Source: Candidatus Ligilactobacillus faecavium
GTDB lineage: Bacteria > Bacillota > Bacilli > Lactobacillales > Lactobacillaceae
NCBI GenBank assembly: GCA_019120355.1
Contig: DWVG01000058.1
Span: forward strand, 1 to 41,681
Length of the DNA stretch: 41,681 nt
Direction of reading: 5' to 3'
In this document: in pieces, positions 8,097-30,004 of the stretch
Position numbering within the stretch: the first letter of the stretch is position 1
Layout of the letters: every line of letters begins with the position of its first letter
Program-made: the position numbers and the translations under genes
Notes under the pieces: generated by a model
What the model was told of the DNA's origin: nothing
Database searches by the model: none
The model's input: only the letters and a program-made list of their open reading frames with translations

Positions 8097-8114
8097 GGTT
8101 AATTCCTCCATCTT

Positions 8115-8172
8115 TTATGCTTGTTTGACATACAATAGTTTTAACGGGGCTATTGTGGGGCAAACAATACCA
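8115..8172 (-). ncRNA. L13 leader (cis-regulatory RNA upstream of rplM)
   Basis: Nested stems TTGTTTG/CAAACAA (8121-8127 / 8161-8167) and ACAATAG/CTATTGT (8132-8138 / 8150-8156) directly before the rplM RBS. Confidence 0.75.
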
Positions 8173-19919: not shown

Positions 19920-20225
19920 TTACAATGTTTTACCTGTCTTTTTAGAAACACGTACTTTCTTGCCATCTTCAATCTTGAAGCCAACCCGTGTTGGTTCATT
20001 GTTTGAAGGATCGATAAGCATAACGTTAGAAACATGAATCGGTGCTTCAACTTCAACAATTCCACCATTTGGATTTGCGTTAGTTGGTTTTTGGTGCTTC
20101 TTAACGATGTTTACGCCTTTAACGATTACACGTTCTTTTGAAGGAAATACTTTTTCAACTGTACCTTCTTTGCCTTTATCTTTACCGGCGATTACTTTAA
20201 CTTTATCATTCTTTTTGATGAACAT
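19920..20225 (-). CDS. rplX: 50S ribosomal protein L24
   Basis: [21 protein letters not shown]. Confidence 0.97.
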
Positions 20226-23824: not shown

Positions 23825-24112
23825 TTATTCTTCATCGAATAATTTAATTTCTTTTGAGTCTGATGTTAATGTAACGATTGCTTTCCGGCGCTTCTTTGTG
23901 TAGCCTTCATAACGACCCATGCGCTTCTTTTTACCCTTAACATTCATAATGTTAACCTTAGCAACCTTAACATCAAAGATGTCTTCAACCGCACTCTTGA
24001 CTTGTGTCTTTGTAGCACGTGTATCAACATCAAATGTATAGCGTTTATCGTCCATATTAGCCATTGAAGCTTCTGTGATAACTGGACGTAAAATTACATT
24101 GCGTGATTCCAT
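23825..24112 (-). CDS. rplW: 50S ribosomal protein L23
   Basis: Typical L23. Confidence 0.97.
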
Positions 24113-24735
24113 TATGCAAGAACCTCCTCTACTTGAGAAAGAGCTCCTTTAGTGATGACCATCTTATCGTTGTTGATAACATCTAAGACGTTCAAACCTT
24201 TAGCTGGGATAACAGTAACATTCTTTAAGTTCCGAGCAGCTAAAGCAGCGTTTGCATTGTCATCTTCAAGAACTACTAATACCTTTGAATTAACATCTAA
24301 GTTGCTTAAAACTTCTGCAAATGCTTTTGTTCTTGGTTGTTCGAATTTTAATTCGTTAACAACAACTAAGCCTTCATCTAATACTTTTTGTGAAAGTACT
24401 GACTTAATAGCTAAGCGACGAACTTTGCGTGGAAGCTTGTAAGCATATGAACGAGGTGTTGGTCCGAATACGGTACCACCGCCTACCCATTGTGGTGAAC
24501 GGATTGAACCTTGACGAGCACGACCTGTACCCTTTTGACGCCATGGCTTCTTACCACCGCCACGTACGGCACTTCTGTTCTTTACAGCGTGTGTCCCTTG
24601 ACGCATTGAAGCACGTTGCATCAATACTGCATCAAAAATTACGCTGTCGTTTGGTTCGATACCAAAAACTGTGTCGTTTAATGAAACTTCACCGTTTTTG
24701 CTACCGTCTTGGTTGAATAATGTAACCTTTGGCAT
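24112..24735 (-). CDS. rplD: 50S ribosomal protein L4
   Basis: Typical L4. Confidence 0.98.
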
Positions 24736-25412: not shown

Positions 25413-25721
25413 TTATAATTTGATTTCGATATCTACACCTGATGGTAAATCAAGTTTCATCAATGAATCAACTGTCTTTGGTGTAGGATTTACAATGTCG
25501 ATTAAACGCTTGTGTGTGCGCATTTCGAATTGTTCACGAGAATCCTTATCTTTGTGTGGTGAACGGATAACTGTATATAATGTCCGTTCTGTTGGCAAAG
25601 GAATTGGGCCTGAAATTTGAGCACCTGTTCTCTTTGCTGTTTCAACAATCTTATCAGCAGATTGATCTAAAATACGATGTTCGTATGCTTTTAAACGAAT
25701 ACGAATTTTTTGTTTTGCCAT
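25413..25721 (-). CDS. rpsJ: 30S ribosomal protein S10
   Basis: [22 protein letters not shown]. Confidence 0.98.
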
Positions 25722-25746
25722 GATGTTCCCTCCTTCGTCTATTTTT

Positions 25747-25834
25747 AAAATAAGACTAGCTCCGTGAAAATTACCGATTCACTCGTGGCAAAGCGGCCGG
25801 GTGTGTCGCAACCTTTCACATCTTAGCTTATTTA
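25747..25834 (-). ncRNA. Candidate structured S10-operon leader RNA
   Basis: Stems AAATAAG/CTTATTT and GTGAAA/TTTCAC enclosing GC-rich GGTTGCGACACACCCGGCCGCTTTGCCACGAGTG. Confidence 0.55.
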
Positions 25835-25960
25835 TAAACACAGAACAAAATACTTACGAAATCGCAAGTACTTTAATAGTTTATTACAATAAATACGAAA
25901 AAGCAAGGACTTTTCTGATTTCAAGCCTACTATAAGAATTATTTTACCCATTATAAGGCA

Positions 25961-25993
25961 AAAATAAAAAGCCATGCTCTCGCATGACTTTTT
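25961..25993 (-). terminator. Terminator of fusA
   Basis: AAAAAGCCATGC/GCATGACTTTTT hairpin. Confidence 0.8.
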
Positions 25994-26005
25994 ATCATTT
26001 AATTA

Positions 26006-29320: not shown

Positions 29321-30004
29321 ATGTTAATTATCTTTTTTATTCTCGGAACCGCATGTGTTTCATTTGGAATGTGCCAAGCACGGCGGTATGTTGAGCAAAT
29401 TCAAAACTGCAGCTGGTCGATTTGTGATCATTGCCATCAGCGACTTAAATGGTGGCAGTTGATTCCAATTTTTGGATATCTACTTCAGGGCGGAAAGTGT
29501 GTTAATTGCCATTTCCCAATCACGGTTGCTTACCCCATCGGTGAATTTCTCGGCGGGGGATTCTTCATTTACTTATTTTCAACCTTTTCCGGCTTAGCTG
29601 CAATTCAATTTGGTTTCTTATTAACTTGGCTTTTAATTTTAGCACTTGAAGATTTCTTCACCCAGACGGTCTCGCTTAAACTTTTGCTTGGTGGTACATG
29701 CAGTGTTCTCTTAATCTTTGGCAATCGAATTTTCAATATTCCGTTAATTCAAATCGAGTTCTGGATCATCATCAGTGGAAGTCTCGCAATTTTATCGCTT
29801 AACAATTACTTTGGATGGGCTGATACCTGTCTGATAAGTTTATTTGGAATTTTATTTCCACCAATTACCCTTGCGGTGATCATTTTAATTGCTTCTTGCG
29901 GTGCCTTCATTACATTGAAGTTTTCAAATCAAACCACGCTTCCTTTTATTCCATGGCTTTTAATTGGAATCATTGTAACTTTACTTTTGCATTTAACAAC
30001 CTGA
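29321..30004 (+). CDS. comC: Type IV prepilin peptidase (A24 family), competence comC-like
   Basis: CDHC...CVNC, PIGEFLGG, Asp motifs ALEDFFTQ and GWAD; several TMs; RBS AGGAGGG. Confidence 0.85.
   Translation: MLIIFFILGTACVSFGMCQARRYVEQIQNCSWSICDHCHQRLKWWQLIPIFGYLLQGGKCVNCHFPITVAYPIGEFLGGGFFIYLFSTFSGLAAIQFGFLLTWLLILALEDFFTQTVSLKLLLGGTCSVLLIFGNRIFNIPLIQIEFWIIISGSLAILSLNNYFGWADTCLISLFGILFPPITLAVIILIASCGAFITLKFSNQTTLPFIPWLLIGIIVTLLLHLTT

Follow-up and report, generated by a model that had tools for sequence, protein, structure and literature searches.

A structured ribosomal protein leader (r-leader) preceding the S10 operon is already known in Firmicutes. Eckert and Weinberg (2020; PMC7247131) credit its establishment to Yao et al. 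2007 and its extension to Clostridia to their own work, and the class is represented in Rfam by RF03136 ('S10-Clostridia'). The regulator of this operon, the largest Gram-positive ribosomal-protein operon, is apparently still to be identified, as a 2024 review states for its spc part (PMC10931766).

We examined the corresponding position in Candidatus Ligilactobacillus faecavium, in a window of 41,681 nucleotides (the whole stretch of DNA analysed, contig DWVG01000058.1). A first-pass annotation of this window had proposed a possibly undescribed structured leader upstream of rpsJ. Conservation and covariation across about 100 leaders confirm that a real structured leader of the S10 operon is present; the claim that it is undescribed was not borne out, given a full-length match to RF03136 and the S10 r-leader already on record (PMC7247131).

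The window element and the RF03136 family

The element immediately precedes rpsJ, where the S10 operon starts (Table 1). At gathering thresholds Rfam reports nothing at the window leader, and the first-pass annotation could not assign a family with confidence; a search at a relaxed threshold supplies one, with RF03136 as the sole convincing match (25731-25832 on the minus strand, full model 1-81, 32.0 bits, E 3e-5; gathering score 35.1). The RF03136 alignment and pair counts also recover the P1 and P3 helices, with the conserved GUUGC and GGAGC strands. Judged from this match, the element is the Firmicutes S10 ribosomal leader. Its sub-threshold score is, on the same kind of evidence, the threshold failure of an orthologue, since copies from the same genus (41.2 and 40.7 bits) and from the B. 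subtilis group (39.1 bits) pass. The window copy is missed because a 28-nt insert, the GC-rich segment, faces few model nucleotides. This segment, to which the first-pass annotation had drawn attention, is indeed rich in G and C (GGTTGCGACACACCCGGCCGCTTTGCCACGAGTGAATCGG; 25813-25774, minus strand, with 26 G or C among its 40 bases).

Across the Lactobacillales, RF03136 finds matches in 144 of 151 genomes and places 34 above its cut-off, missing about three quarters of its own matches in the order. Seven genomes are without a match: one (G025) is an assembly without detectable rpsJ, and the other six have rpsJ. The two of these six that were searched with a model of our own (G041 and G063, leaders L119 and L124) both gave clear matches, of 60-64 bits. 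This model, R1, was built from 81 non-redundant Bacilli leaders; it scores the window at 110.3 bits (the next match in the same genome, at 12.1 bits and E 2.6, is at chance level) and finds 97 of 101 genomes spread over the class Bacilli, nearly all with a single match. The sampling is one of Bacilli leaders; the sole clostridial locus with a short loop that was obtained is L104.

Two other features of the window were recorded in passing: a match to L13_leader (RF00555) at 8114-8171 on the minus strand, scoring 44.1 against a gathering score of 44, and, on the opposite strand to the rpsL-rpoC interval in which it lies, a 227-aa open reading frame (29321-30004, plus strand) resembling a prepilin-peptidase-type membrane protein, for which NCBIfam gave no match.

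Table 1. Features of the S10 leader and its surroundings, in window coordinates
Feature	Position	Strand	Basis
S10 leader element	25728-25834	-	directly upstream of rpsJ
rpsJ (uS10), first gene of S10 operon	25413-25721	-	NCBIfam TIGR01049/NF001861
rplD (uL4), third gene, rival candidate ligand	24112-24735	-	NCBIfam TIGR03953
rplX (uL24), same gene cluster, leading candidate ligand	19920-20225	-	NCBIfam TIGR01079, 134.5 bits; open reading frame
Terminator-like hairpin 3' of fusA, boundary of str and S10 operons	25963-25996	-	terminator scan
Predicted -35 element TTGCTT	25901-25906	-	aligns with conserved CTTG in same-genus relatives; weak consensus match alone
Predicted -10 element TAAACT	25878-25883	-	TATGAT/TACTAT/TATTAT at same place in relatives; 17-nt spacer
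5'-end hairpin ACUUGCGA...UCGUAAGU	25846-25875	-	terminator scan; also in congeners, with changed pairs
Kink-turn bulged strand: AGC (C-stem), UAA (L1-L3), GA (1b,2b), U (3b)	25820-25828	-
P1 (core helix and NC stem of the kink-turn), 5' strand GUGAAA	25814-25819	-	99.0% of cells paired
P2 5' strand CGACACACC	25800-25808	-	77-89% of cells paired; double changes
Near-invariant apical loop GGCCGCUUUGCCAC	25785-25798	-	column counts, 100 leaders
P2 3' strand, imperfect in window genome	25775-25784	-	pair counts
P1 3' strand UUUCAC	25764-25769	-	pair counts; double changes on tree
Kink-turn non-bulged strand: G (3n), GA (2n,1n), GCU (C-stem)	25758-25763	-
P3 hairpin GUCUUAUUUU/AAAAUAGAC, just upstream of Shine-Dalgarno	25737-25756	-	86% of cells paired
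Shine-Dalgarno GGAGGG of rpsJ	25728-25733	-	sequence

Conserved helices, apical loop and kink-turn

The first-pass annotation had named the absence of conservation or covariation in relatives as evidence against a leader; both proved strong. An alignment of 100 leaders fitted to the structure (A2) has 87.3% of its cells paired, with changes on both sides in 22 of 25 pairs, and its covariation score of 0.335 compares with 0.187 for shuffles and at most 0.087 when the structure is slid along the alignment. An alignment made from sequence only (A1) agrees (0.288 versus 0.183), and the top three pairs of an unguided mutual-information scan all belong to P1. Traced on a 73-tip tree built from uS10 and uL3 proteins, these three P1 pairs show 13, 8 and 21 double changes and zero broken pairs, and P1 alone is recovered by RNAalifold from the raw MAFFT alignment. 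Folded by itself, the correct strand does only slightly better than chance, with a z score of -1.69, and 15 of 200 shuffles fold equally well; folding alone would not have settled the structure, and it is conservation that settles it.

Two nested stems had been described as framing the GC-rich segment. Both are present in the window, and the inner one is the conserved core helix P1. The outer one (AAATAAG/CTTATTT, 25833-25827 with 25754-25748 on the minus strand) is not conserved: 54.5% of its cells are paired versus 52.3% in shuffles, and we rejected it as a conserved element of the leader. It ends about 14 nt before the GGAGGG at 25733-25728, rather than the roughly 20 nt first estimated. 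The outer stem would share the 5' strand of P3, and the two were considered as a competing switch; this was also rejected, as the two outer strands of one genome pair no more stably than strands exchanged between genomes (mean -4.53 and -4.47 kcal/mol, respectively; p = 0.46). P3 itself ends 1-5 nt before the Shine-Dalgarno core in all 99 leaders in which its position was found. P2 is imperfect in many genomes, that of the window included; its double changes are chiefly from A-U to G-C at column pair 34/85, and its main support is one pair with seven double changes. Columns 23/79 of A1 hold G.U in 77 leaders and A.C, the isosteric wobble, in four, which suggests that P1 is topped by a specific non-canonical pair.

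The apical loop, which lies within the GC-rich segment, has the consensus GGNNGCWUUGYCAY over 100 leaders. It is missing from the RF03136 consensus, whose alignment skips 28 unaligned nucleotides at this place. Sequence mimicry of 16S or 23S rRNA by the apical core was not above shuffles (for 23S rRNA, 286 of 300 shuffles equal or exceed its score). In three Weissella-like leaders (L025, L052 and L060) the loop word UGCCAYGG occurs twice, in an enlarged P2 domain. The leader assigned to Sedimentibacter sp. SX930 (L058) is almost identical to one from the Lactobacillales (L118), and the contig that carries it probably contaminates the SX930 assembly.

Below P1 the leaders share the pattern AGC-NNN-GA-N opposite N-GA-GCU. 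Of 81 leaders, all 81 have its GA/GA pairs, its 3-nt bulge and its closing C-G pair, and GA/GA is found in 99 of the 100 leaders of A2, the exception having A at 2n, for which Kt-23 of T. solenopsae is a precedent (PMC5061560). The site conforms to the standard sequence definition of a kink-turn (PMC5061560), with a 3-nt bulge, G.A/A.G pairs, a C-stem ended by C-G and an NC stem, and from this we infer a kinked three-dimensional fold. The C-stem shows modest covariation in its pair counts (A-U 40, U-A 17, G-U 14, unpaired 26); independent double changes on the tree are few (two and one), and 21-26% of leaders, chiefly those of Bacillaceae, fail to form its outer pairs. Among 3000 shuffled leaders, 757 (25%) carry a loose kink-turn pattern, so the case for the kink-turn rests on its conservation and not on its presence. 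No mention of a kink-turn in the S10 leader was found in the open-access texts searched, a set that excludes Yao 2007 and Deiorio-Haggar 2013.

Mode of control and candidate ligands

Transcription is predicted to start near 25871, which would give a leader of about 150 nt; a start downstream of the element, named by the first-pass annotation as evidence against it, was therefore not what the promoter prediction gave. The hairpin at the predicted 5' end resembles a terminator. In congeners (L002-L140) its arms are changed yet complementary (CUUGU/ACAAG, CCUGU/ACAGG, CUUGC/GUAAG). It is probably not a terminator, because relatives have no U-tract there, and may possibly stabilise the 5' end of the mRNA. 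A U-tract follows P3 in none of 100 leaders, and transcription attenuation was rejected on this count, the terminator-like sequence at 25846-25875 being the 5' hairpin. Since P3 stands 1-5 nt before the Shine-Dalgarno sequence and no U-tract follows it, translational control is the likelier mode. A short upstream open reading frame beginning at GGAGCUAUG in enterococci was dropped, the AUG being missing in lactobacilli.

For a leader of the location, structure and conservation observed here, and free of a terminator, autogenous translational repression is the best explanation and, in our judgement, a reasonably probable one. We infer protein binding, repression and the translational level of control; autogenous control of the S10 operon, expected by the first-pass annotation, is the natural reading. 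The 5'-UTR domain of about 100 nt combines the predicted kink-turn, P1, an imperfect P2 with its near-invariant loop, and P3 abutting the Shine-Dalgarno sequence. An operon-encoded ribosomal protein present in excess over rRNA would bind at the kink-turn and P1-P2 domain and, together with P3, keep 30S subunits off rpsJ, and the block to rpsJ translation would lower expression of the whole coupled operon.

The kink-turn suggests which protein this might be. In the ribosome Kt-7 (helix 7 of 23S rRNA) is bound by L24, and U.G stands at 3b.3n in 92% of natural Kt-7 sequences (PMC5061560). In Bacilli 23S rRNA, Kt-7 reads G-GA-GCU-GUAAGYA-AGC-NNU-GA-U, and it is the sole kink-turn-like site with the AGC/GCU of the leader and U.G at 3b.3n in the one Bacillus-like 23S rRNA and the one lactobacillar 16S rRNA scanned with the same pattern. 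The leader shares with this uL24 site the C-stem AGC/GCU and the G.A/A.G pairs; most leaders also have U at L3, and about half have U.G at 3b.3n, whereas a third have A.G. The order of strands is permuted: in Kt-7 the C-stem is capped, by GUAAGYA, whereas in the leader the capped side is the NC stem (P1). The consensus of Bacilli leaders resembles that of their own Kt-7, yet leader and rRNA do not track one another in two genomes. G003 has U at 2n of its 23S Kt-7 but G at that place in its leader; in the Leuconostocaceae-like G063, the leader and the 23S Kt-7 differ in their C-stems. The G003 23S rRNA (L186), from a congener, has U at both 2n and 3n of Kt-7 in place of G and G.

Because the leader kink-turn matches Kt-7, we tentatively put forward uL24 as the leading candidate ligand, well short of an identification. 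uL24 is an initiator of 50S assembly, and its gene, rplX, belongs to the same gene cluster as the leader. The fuller proposal, of a Gram-positive S10 leader carrying a permuted copy of Kt-7 that uL24 binds, so that the S10-spc cluster is adjusted by feedback to the balance between uL24 and 23S rRNA, is possible, with the balance of probability against it. If true, it would add a new class of r-leader ligand and, next to uL10, a second example of kink-turn mimicry. It offers a concrete candidate in place of the default, uL4.

uL4 controls the enterobacterial S10 operon through the leader (PMC10931766), and rplD is the third gene of the window operon; here it would have to act through an unrelated RNA fold, on transcription, translation or both. 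Even among gammaproteobacteria the E. coli-type site lacks conservation (PMC10931766), the Firmicutes leader has no terminator, and rRNA sequence mimicry is invisible in it except for the Kt-7-like kink-turn, and we consider regulation by uL4 unlikely. Other proteins of the operon form a doubtful group of ligands: uS10 and uL3 are encoded by the nearest genes, rpsJ and rplC, and proximity is commonly, if not reliably, taken as a guide to the ligand of an r-leader (PMC7247131), while uS17 or uS11 could be drawn in as kink-turn binders, S11 being known to bind its cognate k-turn (PMC5061560). Against them, the leader core resembles neither 16S nor 23S rRNA in sequence beyond chance, and the lactobacillar 16S rRNA scanned contains no match to the strict kink-turn pattern.

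The kink-turn might instead be a global link, read by an L7Ae-family protein (YlxQ or YbxF) in place of an operon-encoded ribosomal protein. The same genome encodes a PF01248 protein (44.7 bits), and YbxF and YlxQ bind K-turns (Baird et al. 2012, as cited in PMC4316175). Proteins of this family bind most kink-turns, which would leave the near-invariant apical loop unexplained, and no evidence of regulation by them was found, making this reading very unlikely. Equally improbable in our estimate is a ligand-free role in which the structure passively stabilises a very highly expressed mRNA or enhances its translation: the 5'-terminal hairpin and a strong Shine-Dalgarno sequence would suit such a role, but a stabiliser needs no near-invariant unpaired nucleotides, and GGNNGCWUUGYCAY, GUUGC and GA/GA are kept in some 40 families. 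With the kink-turn and apical loop supplying exact nucleotides, the question of the ligand becomes directly testable.

Comparison with known leaders

The uL4-controlled S10 leader of E. coli has the operon and the regulatory position in common with the Firmicutes leader. It differs in fold and includes an attenuator with a NusA-assisted terminator, and an intrinsic terminator is absent from the Firmicutes leaders (none of the 100 has a U-tract downstream of P3). In the leader of the uL10 operon (L10(L12)4; RF00557), another r-protein leader, a kink-turn imitates one found in rRNA (PMC10931766); this leader serves another operon, and acts by transcription attenuation in B. subtilis. The rpsJ motif RLC-47-1 of Peptostreptococcaceae (PMC11109978) is also a candidate structured rpsJ 5'-UTR, and is likened to the present leader on that ground.

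Closest is RF03136, which shares the position upstream of rpsJ, P1, the GUUGC strand, GGAGC and P3, and aligns over its full 1-81. The near-invariant apical loop of the Bacilli leaders takes the place of about 5-9 nt in the Rfam consensus, and the bases of the kink-turn C-stem are shown unpaired in the Rfam drawing. Relative to that drawing, this loop and the kink-turn signature, as read from the aligned leaders, appear to be what is new in Bacilli.
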